Program-made: the position numbers and the translations under genes | Shown: positions 25,009 to 41,625 of the stretch, in pieces | How positions within the stretch are numbered: the first letter of the stretch is position 1 | Layout: each line of letters starts with the position of its first letter | Notes under the pieces: generated by a model | Told to the model about the DNA's origin: nothing | The model's database searches: none | What the model saw: the letters and a program-made list of their open reading frames with translations, nothing else | Source: Senegalia massiliensis | GTDB taxonomy: Bacteria; Bacillota; Clostridia; Tissierellales; SIT17 | Direction of reading: 5' to 3' | NCBI RefSeq assembly: GCF_900626135.1 | Contig: NZ_LR130786.1 | Location: 62,001-126,000, forward strand | Length of the DNA: 64,000 bases

Positions 25009-25833
25009 TTATATAGTAATAAAGTCCAACCTCACTTCATTAAAATTAACTGATGGTATGCCTAATGTCCTGTTATTGAATTCCCCATGACAATCTGACC
25101 CTGCTGAAACTAACATGTTATTATCTCTACAAAAATCTAAATAAGAACCTGAATCTTCTAAATTTCTTAAATATGGAGAAAAACACTCAATTCCATCAAT
25201 TCCGTAATCTCTCCATTCTTCTAATAACTTTAAAGATAACTTCTCTCCATTTTCATATGCACTTGGATGAGCTAAAAATGAATATCCTCCTGCATTTTTA
25301 ATTGTTTTTATTACTTCCTTAGGACTTTTAAAAAGTAATTTTTCTTTACTTAATTCTACCAATTTAAAATATTCATCTAAATTTTTTATTATTCTCTTAT
25401 CAAGTAAATAATTTAAAGAATCCCATCCACCTCTTTTATTATCATATTCATATGAATAATAATCTTCAATATTTTCTATTTTATTTATGGTTTTTATATA
25501 TTGAACTATTTTATAATTATATTTTTTTCGCTGAAACTGATTAAATTCTAATAACTCATTTAATTTAAAGTTTTTATAGTCAAAATCATATGCAGTTATA
25601 TGATACTCTTTCCCTTTATACGTAGTTGAAATTTCTACACCAACAGTATAATAAATATCATTAGGTATAATATCCATCATTCGTATACTATTATTAATAG
25701 TGTCATGATCAGTAATAGAAAAAACTTTAATATTTCTATCTATTAAATGTTTCAATAATTCATCTATATCCCATGTTCCGTCTGATTCATTTGTATGAAT
25801 ATGCATATCAACTTTATATTCAATATTTTTCAC
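25009..25833 (-). CDS. PHP-domain phosphoesterase
   Basis: A 274-residue PHP-domain protein of the YciV/trpH type, which hydrolyses 3',5'-bisphosphonucleotides or oligonucleotide 5' ends in studied members. Metal ligands are visible in order: DMHIHTNESDG near the N-terminus, ITDHDT, GVEIS, LAHPSAY and AGSDCHG near the C-terminus. The start is GTG after GAGGTGA. Single gene; the exact substrate is open. Confidence 0.88.
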   Translation of the reverse strand: MKNIEYKVDMHIHTNESDGTWDIDELLKHLIDRNIKVFSITDHDTINNSIRMMDIIPNDIYYTVGVEISTTYKGKEYHITAYDFDYKNFKLNELLEFNQFQRKKYNYKIVQYIKTINKIENIEDYYSYEYDNKRGGWDSLNYLLDKRIIKNLDEYFKLVELSKEKLLFKSPKEVIKTIKNAGGYSFLAHPSAYENGEKLSLKLLEEWRDYGIDGIECFSPYLRNLEDSGSYLDFCRDNNMLVSAGSDCHGEFNNRTLGIPSVNFNEVRLDFITI

Positions 25834-26820: not shown

Positions 26821-26860
26821 AAAAATCAGAAATATTCCAAATGGAATATTTCTGATTTTT
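26821..26860. terminator. Strong hairpin shared by the glyoxalase-fold gene and its neighbour
   Basis: A perfect 19-base stem (AAAAATCAGAAATATTCCA) with a two-base loop and T runs at both ends. It overlaps the stop region of the glyoxalase-fold gene. Confidence 0.85.
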
Positions 26861-27713
26861 ATACTTCTAATTTTATTGAATTTCCTGAAGTATCTTTTGT
26901 ATATACTTTTTTACCTTTTTCAATAATTTTATAATTAAGTTTTTTCAATCTATTAATAGTTTCTTTCCTCATATCTTTATTAGGAAGTTTAATTGTATAA
27001 TACTCCATACCAACTGAATTTTGTGGTAAAGGACCTACATCAGTTCCATTCCAAATATTTAAACCTACATGATGATGGTAACCACCAGAAGATAAAAATA
27101 ATGCTGATTTTCCCATCTCCATAACCACATCAAAACCTAAGCCATTAACATAGAAATCCTTAGCTTTTTCTAAATTATCTACATGAAGATGAATATGTCC
27201 TATTATAGCATCTTCAGGCATCCCAATCCATCTACTATTTTCTGATTGTGATAATAAATCTTCATAATCTAAAAGTCTGTTAGACATTTGTACTTTTTTA
27301 TCTTCCCATATCCATTTACTACTATCAATGTCCGAATATATTTCAATTCCATTATCATCTGGATCTTGTAAATATATTGCCTCACTAACTTCATGATTTG
27401 CTCCTCCAAGAATAGGATAATTTTTTTCTTTGATATTTTTTAAAAACGATCCTAATTGTAATCTATTAGGTAATAATATTGCAAAATGATATAACCCTGT
27501 TCTCTTTGGTATCTTTTTTATAACATCTTTAGGTTGTCTTAAATTTATTATAGGTGTTGAACCATCAATAGTTAATATTAACTCTTTTTCTTTTTCCTCT
27601 AAAACTTTAAATCCCATTATATTTTTATAAAAATCTAAGGACCTCTTCAAATCCTCTACCTTTAATTCTATTTGAGTTACATATATATTTGATTTGTTAT
27701 GAAACTTTCTCAT
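26859..27713 (-). CDS. Two-domain VOC (glyoxalase/dioxygenase-fold) protein, CatE-like
   Basis: A 284-residue protein made of two vicinal-oxygen-chelate domains, as in B. subtilis CatE. Domain 1 (residues 5-125) starts YVTQIELKVEDLKRSLDFY and contains GLYHFAILLPN. Domain 2 (about 165-284) starts GHIHLHVDNLEKAKDFY and contains the metal-site candidates HHVGLNIW and MEYYTIKLP. His/Glu ligands are present in domain 2, so a metal enzyme is plausible. The family includes catechol 2,3-dioxygenases and resistance proteins; the substrate here is unknown. Divergent from the YdaT-like gene. Confidence 0.85.
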   Translation of the reverse strand: MRKFHNKSNIYVTQIELKVEDLKRSLDFYKNIMGFKVLEEKEKELILTIDGSTPIINLRQPKDVIKKIPKRTGLYHFAILLPNRLQLGSFLKNIKEKNYPILGGANHEVSEAIYLQDPDDNGIEIYSDIDSSKWIWEDKKVQMSNRLLDYEDLLSQSENSRWIGMPEDAIIGHIHLHVDNLEKAKDFYVNGLGFDVVMEMGKSALFLSSGGYHHHVGLNIWNGTDVGPLPQNSVGMEYYTIKLPNKDMRKETINRLKKLNYKIIEKGKKVYTKDTSGNSIKLEV

Positions 27714-27884: not shown

Positions 27885-28250
27885 ATGACATGGAATAAAA
27901 ATGATTATCCTGAATCCATGAAAGATTTAGATGACAAAGTGAGAAATAAAGCCATAGAAATAGCAAATGAACTTTTAGATGAAAATTACTCAGAAGATAA
28001 AGCAATTCCTATTGCAATAAATAAGGCAAAAGAATGGGCTGAAAATCATGTTTCTGGTTCAAAAATCCATCATATAGTTCCTAATGGAGATAATTGGGAA
28101 ATCAAAAAAGAAAATAGCAAAAACGCTAGTTATAAATTTGATACAAAAAAGCAAGCTCTGGATAAAGCAAGAGAAATGTTAAAAAATGAAACAAAGAGTG
28201 TTATAGTACACAAAAAAGATGGTACTATAGAAGATGCCCTAACAAATTAG
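27885..28250 (+). CDS. YdaT-like DUF2188 protein
   Basis: A 121-residue soluble protein like B. subtilis YdaT, a general-stress protein. The N-terminal half (MTWNKNDYPESMKDL through AIPIAINKAKEWAENH) is the family's helical part. The C-terminal half, HHIVPNGDNWEIKKE to VIVHKKDGTIEDA, is a DUF2188 domain, a small beta-alpha fold. It follows AAAGGAGG and ends in a terminator, so it is monocistronic. No biochemical role is established. Confidence 0.85.
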   Translation: MTWNKNDYPESMKDLDDKVRNKAIEIANELLDENYSEDKAIPIAINKAKEWAENHVSGSKIHHIVPNGDNWEIKKENSKNASYKFDTKKQALDKAREMLKNETKSVIVHKKDGTIEDALTN

Positions 28251-28280
28251 AAGTAGGTTTTTATCCTACTTCTTTTTTTG
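28249..28280 (+). terminator. Terminator after the YdaT-like gene
   Basis: AGAAGTAGG, a short T-rich loop and CCTACTTCT, followed by a run of seven T. Confidence 0.88.
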
Positions 28281-28342: not shown

Positions 28343-31300
28343 ATGAAGAGCTATCATATGTCAAATATATACAAAAAAATATCTAATAAAATATTAAATA
28401 ATGAAGATATAAAAAAAGATGATTATTATAAAGAAATAAAAGAATATTTTAAAAGCGATATATTCTTGAAAAAATTAGATAGTATTATGAAAAGCAAAGA
28501 TTTTAGTGCTAATAATATTTTTGAATTATTATCTGAGATATTTAAAAAATACGATAATAAAGATAAAAATTTTTGGTTGAATTATTTATATAATTATATA
28601 TTATATAAATCTTTTCCTCATGCAATAACCGTTGAATTGAAAAAACAATATAATACTCCTGCTCTAATTTTTACAATTATCTTTAAAGTATTTACTGATT
28701 ACGAAAGAAACAATGAAAATTTACCAGAAGGAAGATATCCTCTTAAGTTAATTTCTAATTCAAATATTAAAAAATTTAATATATTAAACGAATATAAACA
28801 GTTTAAAAAATCATTTGAAAATAATTATGTATATGAATTAATGAAATTACACCAAGAGATAACAGGACACACTACTCTAAATCACGTTACAGGTGTTCAT
28901 TATGTAGCTATGCATATTTCTTATCAATTATATCATCTAAATTTACCAGTAGACTTAGGAGTAATTTCAGGGGCTGCTGCAGGACATGATATAGGTAAAT
29001 TTGGATGTAAAGGTAAAGAGCTGAAACGTGTTCCATATTTACATTATTATTATACAGAATTATGGTTCAAAAATAATAATATCGATTATATAGGTCATAT
29101 TGCTACTAACCATTCCACTTGGGATCTAGAGTTAGAAAATTTACCTATAGAATCTCTAATTCTTATATATTCTGACTTCAGAGTGAAAAATAAAAAGATA
29201 AATGGACAAAATAAAATGCATATATATTCCCTTAAAGACTCTTTCGATATTATTCTTCAAAAGTTAGATAATGTTGACGTACATAAAGAAAATAGATATA
29301 AAAAAGTCTATGCAAAATTAAAAGATTTTGAAGATTACATGTTAAATTTAGGAGTTAGTCTAGAACCTGAAGTTATTAACTCAGAATCTCCTCCTAGTAA
29401 ACGTTTTTTACTGATGGAAAATGAAGAAATTGTAAATCATTTAAAGTATAGAGCTATAGAACATAATATATTTCTTATGAACAGATTAGAAAGTGAATCT
29501 TCTTTAAGCTCAATATTAGAAATTGCTCGTAGTGAGAATGATTGGAAAAAATTAAGAGGATATTTAAATATATTTGAAGAATACTCAACATATTTTACTC
29601 AAAGACAAAAAGAAATTACTCTTGATTTTCTATATGACCTCTTAATGCACAAAGAAGAAGATATAAGAAAACAAAGTGCTGAATTAATTGGTATTTTAAT
29701 TGCACATTATGACGAAGAATATAGAAAAGAAGTTCCAGAAAATATGGAAGTAGAAAATGAAAAAAATACTAGTTATGATTTACTAGATAAATATATTAAT
29801 TTAGTAATTTCTCCAGATCACAAGATACTAGATACACATAAAAGATGGATGGGATTAAGTCTTAAAACAATAATATCCTCTATTTTGTCTAATTGTAATA
29901 AGTCTCAAAGAAAAGAATTTAGAAATGTAATATTAAATTATTATTCTAAAAGTGATTTAAAAACTGTAGATACACAGTTCTTCTTGTTACAAACAAGTAG
30001 TCATATCCCTTTTAATTCTGATGAAGAAAAAATTATTGGTGATATGCTATCTTTTATAATCGATACATTATCAAGTGAAAATGAAATAATTAAGCTTACA
30101 TCATTACAACAAGTATATAATATAATTTTTAGAATTGATAAAGATAGTGTTTTCATCAATAATGTGAAGAATTATCTAAGATATAATTTAGTTTATTCAA
30201 ATATACCTTCAGAAAATTATATCAAACTTAAAATTTCAAAGAAAATAAAAATGGATAAAAATATCACTAATATATTTTATTCATATTATAAGAAAGATTT
30301 TTCTAAAACACCTGATATATTCTTAATGAATTTAAAAACTGCTACCCATTGGGCTATTAAGAAAAATAATATTGAATTACTCTTAGATTATATTATTGAT
30401 AATCATGATAAAAATATAATTCATACTGCTATGCATTTCACTAACCTAATAAAAGTAAGTGCAAATGAAAATGTGAGGAATCATGCCGGTGATGCATTAC
30501 TTAAAATATTTCCATTTCTTTCATTAGATAAAAGAAATGATGTTACTGTTGAACTATTAAGAGCACTTGAAATTCAAGGATATCATTTTACAAAATATAT
30601 TCCCAATTATTTGGGTCAATTAATACTATATCTTCAGCCAACAGAATTAGATGAATTAATTGATGACTTTATTGATAAAATAAAATCTAATAACAGACAA
30701 ATTCAATTTTTAATATTAAAAACTGTTGGTATAGCTATACAAAACTATTCAAACTATAATGATCTTTTTTCAGAAAGTGAATCATTTTCTAATAAAAGAT
30801 TTACAAAGCTATTAGGTATATTACTAAATGGTCTAGTTAATTATGATATTCAAGTTAGTCAAGAAAGTTTTAGAATAATAGGTTCTGAGATTTTTGGAAG
30901 TAATATATTAGATTTAAAAGAAAAAAATATTATATTTAAGCATATAGCAAAAAAAATATTGAATTTGCTCCCTACTAAAGAAGAAAGTGAATTATGGTTT
31001 CTAAATAATTCTGCTTCATTAAATAACATATATAGATTTATTTCTGATTATATCTTTATAAATGGAAATATAGATATAAAACATACAAAAAAAGTAGCTT
31101 TTTTTCCAGGTACCTTTGACCCGTTTTCATTGAGTCATAAAATGATTACCCAGGAAATACGAGATTTAGGCTTTGAAGTGTATTTACAAGTGGATGAATT
31201 TTCATGGTCTAAAAGAACACAACCCCATGAAATAAGAAGAGAAATAATTAATATGAGTATAGCTGACCAATTAGATATTTACTTATATCCAGAAGATTTA

Positions 31301-33217
31301 CCTGTTAATATCGCAAATGACAGCGATTTAAAAAAGCTTAAGGAGAATTTCAAAGATAAAGATATATATATTGTAGTTGGCAGCGATGTATTATTAAATG
31401 CTTCTTCTTATAAAAAGAATAAAACTGCAAATTCAATTCATAATTTTCCTCACATAATATTTGATAGAAAAGGTGGAGGTTATAATGAAAATAACCTTAA
31501 TGATATTGAACAAGTATTAAAAAATATAACAGGTGACATTATACAACTTAAATTACCTTCAAAATACCAAAAAATCAGTTCAACAAGAATAAGAGACTAT
31601 ATAGATGAAAATAGAGATATATCTCAATTAATAGATCCATTAGCTCAAAATTTCATTTATAAAACAGGTGTATATAAAAGAGAGCCTCAATATAAGATTT
31701 TACTTCAAACTCAATCAATTAGTATAGAGATAATAGATAATATAACCGATACATTAATTCAACATCTATCTTCTACTATACTTAAAAAATATGATAGCTC
31801 TTATGATATGTTGAAATTAATACAAAGTAAATTAAATCCTAGAATTATATTATTGAGAGATATTAAAAAAGATACTATTATAGGTTTTTCAATATTTCAT
31901 TGGATTAGATCTAGTAATCTATTTGAACAATTTAATAATAATCGCATATCTGAATACATTAGAGAAAATTCTGTAGGACGAATAATATCTATCGATGGGA
32001 TATATATTAATGATAATTCTAGATTTAATAATTTGGATCAAATTTTACTTACAGAAACATTATCATTTTGTTTATCTAAAGATTATACTTATGGAGTATT
32101 TAGAAATATTATAAAAGACTATCCTACAAAAACATTAAACGAAGTTTTAATACTACAAGGATTTACTAAAATAAATTTTAGTAATGAAAAAAATCCAATA
32201 TATGCTGTTAAAATGACAAATCCTTGTACTTTAAATTTAGACTTAGAATCAATTCTTAAACCTGAGTTTTCAAATAATAAAAATATAAGAAGAGCAATTG
32301 TAAGGACAAGAAAAAGAATGCAGAGAGTACTTACATCTCTATACCCTGGTCAACTTATTCTTTCCTTTGATAGAAATATACTACATGAAAAAATGATTAA
32401 AAAGATTTGTGAACTAAATAATGTTTCTACACAACAAACTACTCCTAAAAAAAATGGAGAAAAAATGTGTGTACCTTTTGGTAGCATTTTAAATGGCAAT
32501 ATTGTTCCAAATACTGTGACTAAATCACTTCATACAGAAAAAATGTATTCTCCTGATATTAGTGATTTTGACATTGAACCATTCCCCTATTATATGAGTT
32601 TAGATAATCAAATAAAGATGATTAATTCATTTAATAGACCTGTAATTTTAGTAGATGATTTACTTAATAAAGGGTATAGGATAAAAGCAATTGATCCTTT
32701 ACTTAAAAAAGAAGATATAAATGTAGAAAAAATAATAGTTGGTATATTATCTGGAAGAGGAAAAGAGCTTATGGATATACAGAATAGAAAAGTTGATTCT
32801 GCATATTTCATACCAAATCTAAGAGTATGGTTTAATGAAAGTGCTTTCTATCCTTTTATTGGTGGAGATACAGTATGGAGAGGAAATAACCCACTAAGAA
32901 ATATATTACCTTCTGTAAACTTTATACTTCCTTATACTTCTCCTATTTTTATAAAAGGAACAGAAAATAAGACTCTTTATGAATTATCAAAAGTATCACT
33001 ATATAATGCTATAGATTTACTTTCTACATTAGAAAATGAATATCAAAAAAAACATGGAAGAAATTTAACTATAAAACAATTATCTGAAGTATTTTTATCA
33101 TCAAGATATCCTGATAAAGGTAGCGATATTGAATACGATATAAATTTAAAGGCTTCTCATTATTTGAAAAATGATTTAGAACAACTTAAACGCTTAGAAG
33201 ACATAATAAAAAGATAA
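28343..33217 (+). CDS. Giant fusion: HD domain, helical region, NadD-like nucleotidyltransferase, phosphoribosyltransferase-like domain
   Basis: A single 1,624-residue frame after AGGAGG. Residues 180-285 carry an HD-phosphohydrolase pattern (HVTGVHYVAMH, AGHDIGKFG, then TNHSTWD). Residues about 360-900 are helical, possibly HEAT-like. Residues 914-1110 are a nucleotidyltransferase of the NadD/CoaD type: VAFFPGTFDPFSLSH is the HxGH-like site with SLSH in place of the usual HxGH ending, and SSTRIRDYI is the second motif. About 1115-1290 could be a GNAT-like fold. Residues 1325-1530 resemble a type I phosphoribosyltransferase, with the PRPP-type loop RPVILVDDLLNKGYR near 1431. No signal or membrane segment is seen. 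The domain set suggests making and breaking of a nucleotide (NAD-like or sugar-nucleotide) product. The following two genes are co-transcribed. I do not know a characterised protein with this architecture. Confidence 0.85.
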   Translation: MKSYHMSNIYKKISNKILNNEDIKKDDYYKEIKEYFKSDIFLKKLDSIMKSKDFSANNIFELLSEIFKKYDNKDKNFWLNYLYNYILYKSFPHAITVELKKQYNTPALIFTIIFKVFTDYERNNENLPEGRYPLKLISNSNIKKFNILNEYKQFKKSFENNYVYELMKLHQEITGHTTLNHVTGVHYVAMHISYQLYHLNLPVDLGVISGAAAGHDIGKFGCKGKELKRVPYLHYYYTELWFKNNNIDYIGHIATNHSTWDLELENLPIESLILIYSDFRVKNKKINGQNKMHIYSLKDSFDIILQKLDNVDVHKENRYKKVYAKLKDFEDYMLNLGVSLEPEVINSESPPSKRFLLMENEEIVNHLKYRAIEHNIFLMNRLESESSLSSILEIARSENDWKKLRGYLNIFEEYSTYFTQRQKEITLDFLYDLLMHKEEDIRKQSAELIGILIAHYDEEYRKEVPENMEVENEKNTSYDLLDKYINLVISPDHKILDTHKRWMGLSLKTIISSILSNCNKSQRKEFRNVILNYYSKSDLKTVDTQFFLLQTSSHIPFNSDEEKIIGDMLSFIIDTLSSENEIIKLTSLQQVYNIIFRIDKDSVFINNVKNYLRYNLVYSNIPSENYIKLKISKKIKMDKNITNIFYSYYKKDFSKTPDIFLMNLKTATHWAIKKNNIELLLDYIIDNHDKNIIHTAMHFTNLIKVSANENVRNHAGDALLKIFPFLSLDKRNDVTVELLRALEIQGYHFTKYIPNYLGQLILYLQPTELDELIDDFIDKIKSNNRQIQFLILKTVGIAIQNYSNYNDLFSESESFSNKRFTKLLGILLNGLVNYDIQVSQESFRIIGSEIFGSNILDLKEKNIIFKHIAKKILNLLPTKEESELWFLNNSASLNNIYRFISDYIFINGNIDIKHTKKVAFFPGTFDPFSLSHKMITQEIRDLGFEVYLQVDEFSWSKRTQPHEIRREIINMSIADQLDIYLYPEDLPVNIANDSDLKKLKENFKDKDIYIVVGSDVLLNASSYKKNKTANSIHNFPHIIFDRKGGGYNENNLNDIEQVLKNITGDIIQLKLPSKYQKISSTRIRDYIDENRDISQLIDPLAQNFIYKTGVYKREPQYKILLQTQSISIEIIDNITDTLIQHLSSTILKKYDSSYDMLKLIQSKLNPRIILLRDIKKDTIIGFSIFHWIRSSNLFEQFNNNRISEYIRENSVGRIISIDGIYINDNSRFNNLDQILLTETLSFCLSKDYTYGVFRNIIKDYPTKTLNEVLILQGFTKINFSNEKNPIYAVKMTNPCTLNLDLESILKPEFSNNKNIRRAIVRTRKRMQRVLTSLYPGQLILSFDRNILHEKMIKKICELNNVSTQQTTPKKNGEKMCVPFGSILNGNIVPNTVTKSLHTEKMYSPDISDFDIEPFPYYMSLDNQIKMINSFNRPVILVDDLLNKGYRIKAIDPLLKKEDINVEKIIVGILSGRGKELMDIQNRKVDSAYFIPNLRVWFNESAFYPFIGGDTVWRGNNPLRNILPSVNFILPYTSPIFIKGTENKTLYELSKVSLYNAIDLLSTLENEYQKKHGRNLTIKQLSEVFLSSRYPDKGSDIEYDINLKASHYLKNDLEQLKRLEDIIKR

Positions 33218-33227
33218 GAGGTGTATT

Positions 33228-34460
33228 ATGAACTTATACCAAATAGATAAAAATATTTATGGATTTTCATTTCAAAAATATAATTTTAAAACAGCTAAAA
33301 AAGAAGATTTAATCGATTCTGATAAAATTTATTATTTATTTAAAAATGACCCATTAAAAAGCAGGCGAAGCTACATTGTCTCTTCTCCTTCTCTATTATC
33401 TTTAGAAAAGGAAGATATAAATATTTTAAATAATAAAGATAATATAGTCGTAGATGAATGGATTAAGGAAAAAATAGATTCCAAAAAAGTTATTGCTCTA
33501 AATATAAGTTATCCAAATTGGAAAGATGTTTTACATCAAAAATCAAGAAAAAATTGGAATATAAATATTTTGGCTCTAGGAGATGTAGGTACAACTTTAC
33601 TTACTGGATTAAAGCTTTTAGGTGGAAATAAAATCTCAAAAATAGGTATATACGATAGAACATTAGAAAAACAACAAAGATGGGAAATGGAGATGAACCA
33701 AGTATATTCTGCATTTAATTACAACTCTCCTGAAGTGAAAATAATAAATAGAGATGAAATATTTGATTGTGATATGTTTGTATTTTGTGCTTCTAAATCA
33801 GTTCCAAAAGTAGGTAGCAATATAAAAGATGTAAGAATGGCTCAATTTGAAAGTAATTCTAAGATTATAAAAGAATATGCTATCCAATCTAGAAAAGAAA
33901 ATTTTAAAGGAATATTTGCAGTAGTATCTGACCCAGTAGATTTACTTTCTAAAGTAGTTTTTTTAGAAAGTAATAAAGATGAAAATAATAATATGGATTT
34001 CTTAGGATTAGCTCCTGAACAAATTAGAGGATATGGACTAGGAGTAATGAATGCTCGTGCAGTATATTATTCAAAAAAAGATTCTAAATTAAATCATTTT
34101 CTAAAAGAAGGTAGAGCTTTTGGTCCTCACGGAAAAGGTCTAATAATAGCAGATAGTATAAATAATTATAATGATGACTTATCATTGTATTTAACTGATA
34201 AAGCTAAAAATGCAAACTTAGAAATGAGAGATATTGGTTTTAAACCTTTTATAGCACCAGCTTTATCATCAGGAGCACTTTCTATTATGGATACTATAAA
34301 TGGAAATTGGCATTATAGTGCTACTTTTATTGGTGGAGTCTTTATGGGATCAAAAAATAAACTTAAATATAATACTATAGAATTGGAACAATTGAATTTA
34401 CATGACAATCTATTTAGTCGAATAAAAGAAACATATGAGACTTTAGGAGAAATTATATGA
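33228..34460 (+). CDS. Malate/lactate-dehydrogenase-like NAD(P)-binding protein
   Basis: A 410-residue protein with an N-terminal extension of about 110 residues, followed by an LDH/MDH-type Rossmann domain. ILALGDVGTTLLTGLKLLG is the dinucleotide-binding turn, DMFVFCASKSVPKVG the strand-loop before the active site, and VVSDPVDLLSKV replaces the usual NPVD segment. The C-terminal domain contains GLGVMNARAVYYS and FGPHGKGLI, where GxHG keeps the catalytic His position. Catalysis on a 2-hydroxy/2-oxo acid is therefore possible, but the extension and altered motifs suggest a different substrate. It lies 10 bases after the giant gene and overlaps the next by four. Confidence 0.75.
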   Translation: MNLYQIDKNIYGFSFQKYNFKTAKKEDLIDSDKIYYLFKNDPLKSRRSYIVSSPSLLSLEKEDINILNNKDNIVVDEWIKEKIDSKKVIALNISYPNWKDVLHQKSRKNWNINILALGDVGTTLLTGLKLLGGNKISKIGIYDRTLEKQQRWEMEMNQVYSAFNYNSPEVKIINRDEIFDCDMFVFCASKSVPKVGSNIKDVRMAQFESNSKIIKEYAIQSRKENFKGIFAVVSDPVDLLSKVVFLESNKDENNNMDFLGLAPEQIRGYGLGVMNARAVYYSKKDSKLNHFLKEGRAFGPHGKGLIIADSINNYNDDLSLYLTDKAKNANLEMRDIGFKPFIAPALSSGALSIMDTINGNWHYSATFIGGVFMGSKNKLKYNTIELEQLNLHDNLFSRIKETYETLGEII

Positions 34461-35509
34461 AAAAAGTTTATTTAATAATGTCTAAAAATCCTTCAAAGTT
34501 TTTATTAAAAATGGTAAAGCATACTTTAAATAATAAAGATTATATATTGATTGATGACTATAAAAATATACCTAATTTAAAGAACAAAAAAATACTATTT
34601 GCAGTAGAATTAGATGATTTTGGTGGAAATATATTCATACAAAAGATTTTTAATCAATTATTCATTTTAGGAAAAGATTCTCTTAAAAACTCTATAGGAT
34701 CAGTTTTAATATATAACAGTAAAAATGATTTATATACTAAAACAATGGCTCAAAATATTATATTTAATGCAAATATATTAGGTTGCACTTTTCCAGGCAG
34801 ACCTTTAGTAGAAGCTACAAAAAGTCTGCTAAATATGAAAACATTAGCCAATGCTAAAAATATGACTTTAAAAGAGGCACTTTTTTGTTCTTGTGATACT
34901 CTTGGTAATAATTTAGAAAATTTTAATCATAAAAAATTAGAAAAACCAAAGCTATTAGTACTTCATTCTAGCAATTATGAAACATCAAATACATTAAGAC
35001 TTTGGTCTATGGTTAAAGAAAATTTAAATAATATGGATATAAAAGAAATTCATATTGCAAATGGTACAGTCAGAGATTGCATAGGTTGTCCATATACCAC
35101 TTGTAAGCATTATGGAGAGAATACAAGTTGTTTTTATGGAGGTATAATGGTAGAAGAAGTTTACCCTGCTATTTTAGAAGCTGATTCTATTGTTTGGATT
35201 TGTCCTAATTATAATGATTCTATAGCAGCTAATTTAAAAGCAGTTATAAATAGACTTACAGCACTTTTCAGAAAAACAAAATTCTATGATAAATCCATTT
35301 TCTCTATTATAGTATCTGGTAACTCTGGAAGTGATGCTATAACAAAGGAACTTATAAGTGCATTAAATATCAATAAAACCTTTAAACTTCCTCCTAATTT
35401 TGCTATTATGGAAACTGCTAATGATAAAGATGCTATTTTAGAAGTTGAAAATATTGAAAAAAAAGCATATGAATTTAGTGAAAATATAACTGATTTTTTA
35501 CAAAAATAG
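34457..35509 (+). CDS. Flavodoxin-fold NAD(P)H-dependent FMN reductase-like protein
   Basis: A 350-residue protein. Residues 1-155 form an unassigned N-terminal domain. From about 165 it follows the NADPH-dependent FMN reductase pattern: LLVLHSSNYETSNTLRLW at the phosphate loop, then a Cys-rich segment DCIGCPYTTCKHYG seen in iron-sulphur flavoproteins, and WICPNYNDSIAANLKAVI near the isoalloxazine site. It is likely to bind FMN and reduce an electron acceptor or the product of its operon. The start overlaps the preceding stop (ATGA); the 3' end runs into a palindromic terminator that contains the stop codon. Confidence 0.78.
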   Translation: MKKVYLIMSKNPSKFLLKMVKHTLNNKDYILIDDYKNIPNLKNKKILFAVELDDFGGNIFIQKIFNQLFILGKDSLKNSIGSVLIYNSKNDLYTKTMAQNIIFNANILGCTFPGRPLVEATKSLLNMKTLANAKNMTLKEALFCSCDTLGNNLENFNHKKLEKPKLLVLHSSNYETSNTLRLWSMVKENLNNMDIKEIHIANGTVRDCIGCPYTTCKHYGENTSCFYGGIMVEEVYPAILEADSIVWICPNYNDSIAANLKAVINRLTALFRKTKFYDKSIFSIIVSGNSGSDAITKELISALNINKTFKLPPNFAIMETANDKDAILEVENIEKKAYEFSENITDFLQK

Positions 35510-39049: not shown

Positions 39050-39086
39050 AAAAATAGGTACTCCAAATGGAGTACCTATTTTTGTA
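39050..39086. repeat. 37-bp palindromic terminator, copy 2 (inverted)
   Basis: Exact reverse complement of the copy at 35499-35535. Here it carries the TAG stop of the alarmone synthetase gene. The palindrome extends further, to 39041-39092, giving a stem of about 25 bases with a two-base loop. Confidence 0.9.
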
Positions 39087-39885
39087 GTATTTGTATATTA
39101 TATTTTTCTGCTAACTTATCTAATTTCTTTTTGAAATATCTTAACTCATAGAAGTTTCCTCGTTCTTGAATATCAAAGAATTCTTCTCTATAATCATCTA
39201 TTTCTTTTACCTTTCCTGAGAAATAAAGGGTTTGTATTTTATTTAGTATCTCTGCTACTAAACTACTTTTCACTTGAAACATTTCTTGAGCTTCAACTAT
39301 TTCTTCTCTAATTTCAGACATTTGTTCATCTAGATTAGATGCTGAATCTGCTGCATTTTTTAATTTAATTTTTATATGTTCTGGCATATTACCTTCAAAT
39401 TTATAATTAAGAGAATGTTCAATAGTTGCCCAAAAATTCATAGCAAGTGTTCTTATTTGTATTTCTGCTAATATATCTCTTTGACCAAAGGCAGTATGAA
39501 CAGGATATCTAATTATTATATGATACGATTTATATCCACTTTCTTTTTGATTTTTTATATAATCTTTTTCATATTCAATTTTTAAATCCTTTCCATCTCT
39601 TTCTTTTATCAAATTTACTACTTTGTCAATATCCTCAACCATTTGGCACATTATTCTTATACCAGCTATATCTTCCATTTTCTCAGTTATATCATCTAAT
39701 GGAATATTAAGACGTTTAGATTTATCTAATATGCTTGATATTTTTTTGACTCTACCTGTAACAAATTCAATTGGAGAGTATTCATCCATTTTTCTATATT
39801 CATTTCTTATGCTTTTAAATTTTATTTTTAATTCTTCAACTGCTTGATCATAAGGTATAAGCACTTGATTCCAATTTTGTATCAT
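39076..39885 (-). CDS. Small alarmone synthetase (GTP pyrophosphokinase)
   Basis: A 269-residue RelA/SpoT-domain protein without the HD hydrolase or regulatory domains, like B. subtilis YjbM/YwaC. It transfers pyrophosphate from ATP to GDP or GTP to give (p)ppGpp. Motifs visible are FVTGRVKKISSI, the metal-binding DIAGIRIMC, ESGYKSYHIII and AEIQIRTLAMNFWATIEHSL. The C-terminal helices (EEIVEAQEMFQVKSSLV) fit the oligomerisation region. Its last codons lie in the palindromic terminator. Single gene with a GGGGAGG ribosome site. Confidence 0.92.
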   Translation of the reverse strand: MIQNWNQVLIPYDQAVEELKIKFKSIRNEYRKMDEYSPIEFVTGRVKKISSILDKSKRLNIPLDDITEKMEDIAGIRIMCQMVEDIDKVVNLIKERDGKDLKIEYEKDYIKNQKESGYKSYHIIIRYPVHTAFGQRDILAEIQIRTLAMNFWATIEHSLNYKFEGNMPEHIKIKLKNAADSASNLDEQMSEIREEIVEAQEMFQVKSSLVAEILNKIQTLYFSGKVKEIDDYREEFFDIQERGNFYELRYFKKKLDKLAEKYNIQILQK

Positions 39886-39961: not shown

Positions 39962-41353
39962 CTAAAACTCTGCAGATTTTGTCGTTCTAGGGAAAGAGAT
40001 TACATCTCTAATATTACTCATTCCTGTAAGATACATTATAATTCTTTCAAATCCAAGTCCAAATCCTGCATGTTTTGTAGTACCATATTTTCTTAAATCT
40101 AAATACCACCAATAATCTTCTTTTTCAAGTCCAAATTCTTTTATTCTCTCTTCTAATTTCTCAAGGCGTTCTTCTCTTTGACTTCCTCCAATTATTTCTC
40201 CTACACCTGGAACTAATAGATCCATAGCTGCAACAGTTTTATCATCATCATTTAATCTCATATAAAATGCCTTTATATCTTTTGGATAATCTGTTACAAA
40301 CACTGGTTTATCAAATACTTTTTCCGTAAGATATCTTTCATGTTCCGTTTGAAGATCCATACCCCATTTAACTTCATATTCAAATTTTTCATTTGATTTT
40401 TCAAGTATGTCTATTGCTTTTGTGTAAGTTATTCTTTCAAAATCAGAACTTGCTACATTTGTAAGTCTTTCTAAAAGACCTTTATCTATAAATTTATTAA
40501 AGAAATCTAATTCTTCTTTTGCATGTTCCATGATATATTTTATTATATATTTCATCATATCTTCAGCTAAATCCATATCATCATTTAAGTCTGCAAAAGA
40601 TATTTCTGGTTCTACCATCCAGAATTCTGCAGCATGTCTTGCAGTATTAGACTTTTCTGCCCTAAAAGTTGGTCCAAAAGTATATACATTTCTAAATGCT
40701 TGAGCATAAGTCTCAGCTGCTAACTGTCCACTTACGGTAAGTGATGTTTCTCTCCCAAAAAAATCTAAAGTAGAATCTATTTTTCCTTCTTCAGTTTTTT
40801 GAATATTTTCAAGATCTAATGTTGTAACTCTAAACATTTCTCCTGCACCTTCTGCATCACTTGAAGTAATTATAGGTGTATGAGTATATACAAAATCTCT
40901 TTCTTGGAAAAATTTATGAATAGCATAACTTGCTAAAGATCTCACTCTAAATACTGCTGAAAAAGTATTACTACGAGGGCGAAGATGTGCTATTGTTCTT
41001 AAGTACTCAAAAGTATGTCTCTTTTTCTGAAGTGGATAGTCACTAGGTGCCTCTCCTTCTATAGTTATTTCACTAGCCTGTATTTCAAAGGGTTGTTTTG
41101 CATCTGGTGTTAATACTAGTTTCCCTCTTACTATTATAGCACTACTTACTGAAAGTTTTGTAACTTCCTTAAAATTATCTAATTCATTACCTATTACTAT
41201 TTGAATTCCCTTGAAAAAAGTTCCATCATTTAATTCTATAAACCCAAATTTTTTAGAACTTCTAGATGTTCTAATCCAACCTGAAACTTTTATTTCCTTG
41301 TCTTTAAATTGTTCTTTGTCTTTATAAATTTCTCTTACTAAAATATTTTTCAT
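39962..41353 (-). CDS. asnS: Asparaginyl-tRNA synthetase
   Basis: A 463-residue class IIb synthetase charging tRNA-Asn. The N-terminal OB fold is [21 protein letters not shown]. Catalytic core: [17 protein letters not shown], motif 2 [20 protein letters not shown], and motif 3 [13 protein letters not shown] near the C-terminus. Asn- rather than Asp-specificity is suggested by the whole pattern and the lack of a GAD insertion. The start follows AAGGAGG. Expression is controlled by an upstream T-box leader. Confidence 0.96.
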
Positions 41354-41382: not shown

Positions 41383-41625
41383 AAAAAATCTTCTCTCCCT
41401 AAAAAGGGACGAAAAGATTCCGCGGTACCACCCTAGTTGTCTTATGACCAACTCTAATCAAAATAACGGTTTGTATCCGTCTAATCCTACTCTCAAAAGA
41501 TTTCAGTTAGAAACTCAAGGATGTTCTTCAATATAGTATACATGTTGAACTTTCACCATAATCAACTCGCTAAAATGTTTTTCTATATCTACTCTTCCTA
41601 TCATAGTCTATTGAATATATTGTAA
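41383..41625 (-). promoter_or_regulatory. T-box leader of asnS
   Basis: On the minus strand the conserved T-box CAACTAGGGTGGTACCGCGG is at 41420-41439. It is followed by a terminator stem (AATCTTTTCGTCCCT against AGGGAGAGAAGATT, 41387-41419) with a T run before asnS. Upstream are stem I features (AGCGAGTTGA and the distal loop region). A candidate specifier AAC, the asparagine codon, is at 41506-41508. Uncharged tRNA-Asn should favour the antiterminator and raise asnS expression. Confidence 0.92.

Follow-up and report, generated by a model that had tools for sequence, protein, structure and literature searches.

In a 64,000-nt stretch of the genome of Senegalia massiliensis (hereafter the window, to which all coordinates refer) we found three genes, labelled P1, P2 and P3, that by their gene structure form a compact operon and that are near-obligately co-inherited in other genomes. 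We tentatively read them, with a probability of roughly 40%, as a dedicated nucleotide-cofactor module in which P1 would be a multistep enzyme. P1 (28343..33217 on the forward strand, stop included) encodes 1,624 amino acids in a single intact frame, with the order HD domain, HEAT solenoid, NadD-like nucleotidylyltransferase, GNAT fold and phosphoribosyltransferase (PRTase)-like domain, as seen from the list of open reading frames (ORFs), domain scans and structure models. It is followed by P2 (33228..34460, +), a protein of 410 amino acids of the lactate/malate dehydrogenase (LDH/MDH) superfamily, and by P3 (34457..35509, +), an FMN-reductase/flavodoxin-fold protein of 350 amino acids.

Gene structure and architecture

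The three ORFs lie on the same strand and a Shine-Dalgarno-like site stands ahead of each of them. The gap between the stop of P1 and the start of P2 is 10 nt, the ATG of P3 overlaps the stop of P2 by 4 nt and the gene downstream of P3 is on the opposite strand. A terminator-like stem-loop (28249..28273, +) stands between the upstream DUF2188 gene and the operon; three such structures were found in the region against 1.3 expected by shuffles, which is weak evidence alone. An earlier note, made from the letters of this DNA, had described one giant frame of 1,624 residues within a three-gene operon, and both descriptions hold. P1 is neither an assembly artefact nor a chance ORF, since it has full-length homologues with 34-95% identity and conserved sites.

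Pfam and NCBIfam label only fragments of P1, and no paper on its architecture was found in the open-licence PMC literature. We describe the domains from profile scans, from AlphaFold models of residues 1-912 and 905-1624 (73 sequences each, mean pLDDT 89.4 and 89.2) and from conservation over 80 rows, that is, the window and 79 loci from a scan of genome contigs.

The HD domain (residues 145-345, 28775..29377, +) carries H181, H215, D216, H234, H257 and D278 in the pattern H..HD..H..H..D, and all six metal-ligand residues are invariant in the 80 rows. PF01966 scores 24.5 over a cut-off of 22 in the homologue L106, while P1 of the window itself has no Pfam HD match at E 1. The structure search did not confirm the HD fold, because solenoid matches fill both match lists. 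According to a review of HD proteins (PMC8177086), the extended motif is the sign of a dinuclear site, YqeK being an example, and P1 has this six-ligand YqeK motif. The Arg which the same review places about three residues ahead of the initial His has not been retained in P1, where position 178 is mostly Thr. TIGR00488 was absent from the NCBIfam matches of P1 at E 1.

The long helical middle of the earlier note appears in the models as a HEAT/ARM-like alpha solenoid (residues ~376-905, 29468..31057, +). The N-terminal half of P1 is predicted to be all-helical save one hairpin, and residues ~376-912 match HEAT/ARM solenoids with a best Z of 15.3, a value that repeat proteins easily reach. Weak Pfam HEAT matches were also found in homologues. 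No nucleic-acid-binding domain scored over cut-off in the domain scans of the window member and its homologues.

The nucleotidylyltransferase (residues 916-1115, 31088..31687, +), with the motifs GTFDPFSLSH, VGSDV and ISSTRIR, had also been anticipated. Pfam CTP_transf_like reaches 30.1 bits over a cut-off of 21. Residues 12-208 of the C-terminal model superpose on the NadD of Mycobacterium tuberculosis (4rpi_B) with a Z of 18.1 and an rmsd of 2.7 over 186 aligned residues, and the best structural matches of the modelled domain are all small-molecule NMN/NaMN adenylyltransferases. G923, D926, H932, D951, W955, K957, G1013, D1015, Y1023, S1080 and R1084 are invariant in the 80 rows.

Against nine canonical NadDs of the order, hhalign gives the domain 98.8% over 187 columns. 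It shares with canonical NadD the fold, GTFDP, the second His and ISSTxIR, but TIGR00482 (NadD) stays at 45.5 bits under a cut-off of 112.45, PPHK and SYT are missing, the acceptor-side Trp has become Tyr and HxGH reads SxSH. PPHK and SYT, which we take to have an acceptor-side role in NadD, are present with small variations in all nine canonical proteins. Their loss from P1 points to an acceptor other than that of NadD. Besides P1, a canonical NadD was found in 100 out of 100 relatives, and in the genome of the window NadD and YqeK lie side by side, away from the operon. Thus P1 is an addition and can be ruled out as a replacement of the housekeeping NadD.

The possible GNAT of the earlier note was right as a fold. 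Residues ~1124-1292 (31712..32218, +), numbered 220-387 in the model, match 5yag_B with a Z of 14.5 and an rmsd of 3.0 over 158 aligned residues. Pfam gives no GNAT match in P1 of the window, and the acetyl-CoA loop, presumably R/Q-x-x-G-x-G/A, was not recognised: near that place, as placed by eye, the window has RFNNLDQI and the consensus NLEQI.

The PRTase-like domain (residues 1305-1535, 32255..32947, +) contains the PRPP (phosphoribosyl pyrophosphate)-type loop VILVDDLLNKGYR at 32642-32680. Foldseek matches the modelled domain moderately to a uracil PRTase (6wn8, E 1.9e-4, TM to target 0.42). The loop proposed from the sequence thus sits in a probable PRTase fold, but PF00156 (Pribosyltran) scores only 13.0 in the window, under a cut-off of 26.3. 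Weak matches to this family (E up to 1) occur in 28 of 44 homologues, the best at 3.8e-4. D1438, G1444 and R1446 are conserved in 80 of 80 rows and D1439 in 70. Type I PRTases (uracil/hypoxanthine) share with P1 the DD of the PRPP loop; P1 differs from them in having KGYR where TGxT, which we assume to be the usual form of the loop, is expected, and in additional conserved segments that follow the loop. This domain was never found as a stand-alone protein in the 398 genomes of the phylum sample, eight of which carry the PRTase part, always inside the fusion. Structure prediction, which the earlier note had proposed as a check, therefore supports both the nucleotidyltransferase and the PRTase folds.

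Regarding P2, the earlier note had seen an MDH/LDH-like protein with a long extension, which agrees with our scans: residues 1-104 are an N-terminal extension and residues 105-410 are LDH-like. Ldh_1_N (PF00056, the NAD-binding half) scores 29.9 over a cut-off of 27, and four of five scanned homologues are also over it (L105, with 25.3, is under). The last 300 residues align with an L-lactate dehydrogenase of a relative (hhalign 98.2%). In what we take to be the usual LDH numbering, R109, R171 and H195 have their counterparts in R203, R277 and H301 of P2. In contrast to L-lactate/malate dehydrogenases, P2 has an invariant Met274 in place of Asp168 and an invariant Asp235 in place of Asn140, so that the Asp168-His195 dyad is missing although its His is kept.

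P3 is, as expected, of a flavodoxin-fold reductase type with a Cys-rich segment. FMN_red (PF03358) scores 74.1 over a cut-off of 24 and is over cut-off in all six P3 proteins scanned. The fold covers residues 164-320. P3 differs from the other members of this NADPH-dependent FMN reductase family in a 160-aa N-terminal part and in four cysteines (C208, C211, C216 and C225, spaced C-x2-C-x4-C-x8-C) which are invariant in 21 rows. The P3 profile had no match among solved structures at E 0.1.

Co-inheritance and distribution

The contig scan returned 501 stretches encoding a P1 relative. The 80 loci kept belong to Bacillota, with nine from Atribacterota and one Calditrichales record; P1 is thus present in Atribacterota and in Clostridia beyond the order of the window. 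The thermophile Thermohalobacter berrensis (homologue L121) is among the carriers of P1, and Clostridium carboxidivorans has the module. Within that order, 88 of 249 genomes match P1 at E 1e-40 and 161 have no strong match.

Among 100 relatives, strong matches to P1 were found in 61, P2 in 59 and P3 in 58. Every genome with P2 also has P1, and P3 without P1 is one fragment (in G063), so that P3 accompanies P1 in 57 of the 61 genomes. P2 is lacking beside P1 in G021, where the contig ends inside P1, and in G082; P3 is lacking in these two and in G070 and G092. P1 is followed by P2 on one strand in 59 of 61, 71 of 80 and 22 of 27 loci in three partly overlapping sets, and the complete order P1-P2-P3 is found in 56, 64 and 19 of them respectively, many of the misses being contig ends. 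Where P2 and P3 do not adjoin P1 they are often elsewhere in the genome, as in G423, which has the pair on another contig, and likewise in those that hold L139, L156 and L133. We disregarded the split P1 frames of L232 and L233, which probably reflect errors in the sequence, given that P2 and P3 of L232 are also broken.

The order recurs in other genera and phyla and is therefore not due to chance. The earlier note had proposed a survey of co-occurrence, with unlinked genes counting against its idea; the three genes proved to be linked in other genomes, and they are near-obligately co-inherited.

When 79 P1 proteins were placed in a midpoint-rooted tree, the nine from Atribacterota grouped in a single clade (support 100), which sits beside Tepidibacter and Alkalithermobacter, inside Bacillota. 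P2 adjoins P1 at eight of the nine Atribacterota loci, and at seven P3 comes next; at L133 the contig ends after P1. A transfer of the whole module between phyla would be expected to give such nesting.

Some loci depart from the usual arrangement. L139 and L156 are Marinisporobacter copies of P1 without adjoining P2 and P3, both with N in place of H252; the Marinisporobacter genome McD2.5 additionally carries L148, a P1 with P2 and P3. At two loci, L114 and L117, P1 is separated from P2 by an ammonium-transporter-like gene and by glutamate-synthase genes. Pfam recognised the latter in L114 (GATase, Glu_synthase and GXGXG), in a check limited to these genes of that locus.

Decayed copies of P1

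The genome G082, a single contig that is 98% complete, has P1 (L102) and lacks both P2 and P3. L102 is an open frame of 1,597 amino acids in which none of the six HD ligands remains. Its NadD-like domain lacks G923, D926, G1013, Y1023, S1079, S1080 and R1084, whereas H932 is kept. The first set, of 61 rows, shows a change at H181, H215, D216, H257 and D278 in a single row each, always that of L102. Among 27 further loci, 22 have sequence in the HD region and all their readable residues are as expected, save the split frames of L251.

Compared with ten P1 proteins of its family, L102 is 29% identical in the HD domain (76% among the ten), 38% in the NadD-like domain (77%), 38% in the HEAT solenoid (65%), 53% in the PRTase-like domain (76%) and 59% in the GNAT domain (69%). 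Therefore, the HD domain, the solenoid and the NadD-like domain lost constraint along with P2 and P3, whereas the GNAT domain kept it and may have a separate job. Judging by this genome, the HD and NadD-like domains seem to work as a unit with P2 and P3. In G068 (L109), P1 has lost residues ~1007-1126 in frame and with them the latter half of its NadD-like domain, the HD domain and P2 being intact, and P3 of the same operon has a deletion of residues ~199-305; this is weaker evidence, as the assembly is a draft. The co-decay is thus one clear case and one weaker one, and may be due to chance.

Proposed function and alternatives

The nearest known kind to P1 is the NadD-YqeK fusion of mycoplasmas (JCVISYN3A_0380), together with the nadD-yqeK neighbours of Gram-positives. 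As described (PMC9426524), this fusion also unites, in a single chain, a nucleotidylyltransferase of the NadD fold with an HD hydrolase, and its YqeK hydrolyses faulty NaAD analogues and so proofreads NAD synthesis, which suggests synthesis plus proofreading in one protein. YqeK itself has a motif of the H..HD..H..H..D type like that of P1 (PMC8177086). The analogy with NadD and YqeK drawn in the earlier note was thus a good one. Nevertheless, P1 is set apart by its architecture, by the lost NadD acceptor motifs and by its coupling to P2 and P3. It puts the HD domain first, with a 530-aa solenoid between it and the NadD-like domain, it has a GNAT and a PRTase domain besides, as well as two redox partners, and it coexists with canonical NadD and YqeK.

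Since canonical NadD is always present and YqeK offers a precedent (PMC9426524), we read P1 as a possible builder and proofreader of a non-nicotinate NAD-like nucleotide. We infer each catalytic step, their order and the identity of the product as follows. The PRTase-like domain would add phosphoribosyl to, or remove it from, a base other than nicotinate. The NadD-like domain would couple that mononucleotide to AMP, or another nucleoside monophosphate, to give an NAD-like dinucleotide, and the HD domain, with a YqeK-type dinuclear site, would hydrolyse dinucleotide that is wrong or in excess, in the role that YqeK plays for NadD. The solenoid would space the HD domain from the C-terminal enzymes. 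P2, dehydrogenase-like with a changed active site, and P3, with a flavoprotein-type fold and a cysteine cluster, would act on the same compound, by making its precursor or by reducing or using the cofactor. The synthesis or turnover of an NAD-like nucleotide, as the earlier note had it, is accordingly kept as the best reading, but not in the sense of housekeeping NAD synthesis. The farther-reaching version, in which Clostridia and Atribacterota carry an undescribed dinucleotide cofactor that P1 assembles from a non-nicotinate base, PRPP and ATP, the HD domain proofreads and P2 and P3 reduce or use, is doubtful.

Several observations weigh against the cofactor module. There is no known activity for P1. 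Its HD domain has weak profile similarity to seven YqeK rows (hhalign 14%, E 0.0019), the first His of HxGH is Ser or Thr in the NadD-like domain, and DDLLNKGYR is an unusual PRPP loop, which leaves room for a PRTase that has no activity or works in the reverse direction. Because Met stands in P2 where L-lactate dehydrogenase has its catalytic Asp, P2 is perhaps no dehydrogenase. Three genomes with P1 and P2, those of L123, L142 and L157, lack a close P3. Finally, G082 keeps the PRTase and above all the GNAT domain while the HD and NadD-like domains decay, which means that the domains need not form one pathway.

A rather unlikely alternative is damage control or salvage of NAD(P), where P1 would act on ordinary miscoupled or damaged NAD-type dinucleotides with the HD domain as its main activity, the NadD-like and PRTase domains would remake or dismantle the nucleotide, and P2 and P3 would repair oxidised or mis-reduced forms. 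The hydrolysis of faulty NaAD analogues by YqeK (PMC9426524), the NAD-binding half kept by P2, the FMN_red fold of P3 and the constant presence of NadD speak for it. However, with SYT and PPHK gone, recognition of a nicotinate nucleotide is improbable, and 161 of the 249 genomes of the order lack a strong P1 match. It is unlikely that P1 instead modifies RNA or protein, with the solenoid holding a macromolecule, the NadD-like domain adenylylating, the GNAT acylating, the HD domain reversing and P2 and P3 adding redox steps. Solenoids often bind proteins or nucleic acids, HEAT/ARM matches fill the structure lists and the GNAT is the best-kept domain of G082, but the closest structural relatives of the NadD-like domain all work on small molecules and the scans gave no nucleic-acid-binding domain over cut-off.

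The YqeK-type motif (PMC8177086) would also suit the control of a dinucleoside polyphosphate (Ap4A-like) or alarmone, which P1 would make and break while P2 and P3 report the redox state, and a RelA_SpoT-domain gene, small alarmone synthetase-like, lies nearby (39076-39885); 16 of 61 loci have an ORF related to it at a distance of 2.3-7.3 kb downstream of P1. Nevertheless, that gene runs on the opposite strand and its presence near P1 is not constant, and a canonical YqeK is already in the genome, so we consider this quite improbable. Very improbable is a largely non-catalytic scaffold of degenerate domains: the GNAT fold without its usual acetyl-CoA loop and the altered PRPP loop and HxGH would agree with it, but catalytic residues are near-totally conserved over the 80 rows and the only decayed HD site belongs to a P1 without P2 and P3.

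With its tie to P2 and P3, and with a PRTase part that in the genomes searched occurs only inside the fusion, P1 marks a metabolic step of anaerobes that annotation has missed. Should P1 synthesise or protect a nucleotide cofactor, a further cofactor pathway would be gained, and if that cofactor were new the system would be categorically new; with ordinary NAD as its substrate, P1 would still amount to elaborate machinery for proofreading. G082, where P2 and P3 are gone and chiefly the HD and NadD-like domains decayed, shows which parts belong together for an assay.

Neighbouring genes

No constant fourth gene accompanies the operon; serine dehydratase, cis-prenyltransferase and amine oxidase neighbours are limited to subsets of loci. 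In L052-L055 and L057 a flavin amine oxidase-type gene (552-574 aa) lies 87-227 nt upstream of P1 on the same strand, an identity that rests on Pfam in L053. It occurs in close relatives, including two of the genus of the window, which has the DUF2188 gene at this place. Riboswitches gave no clue either, as among 19 loci there were only one tRNA and one cobalamin riboswitch, each in a single locus.

We rejected a role as phage or plasmid cargo or in defence. P1 and P2 have no phage matches, no relatives turned up on viral contigs, the sole match in the plasmid collection is a 2.6-Mb record of Acetoanaerobium noterae labelled as plasmid, and the PADLOC profiles gave 0 families for P1, P2 and P3 at E 0.01.

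Elsewhere in the window, a T-box leader (41402-41613, -), far from the operon, lies upstream of the gene at 39962-41353, which presumably encodes an aminoacyl-tRNA synthetase. On the same strand there are a two-domain glyoxalase/VOC protein (26859-27713) and a PHP-domain protein resembling RNase RNM or a nucleoside bisphosphate phosphatase (25009-25833), both under the NCBIfam cut-offs.

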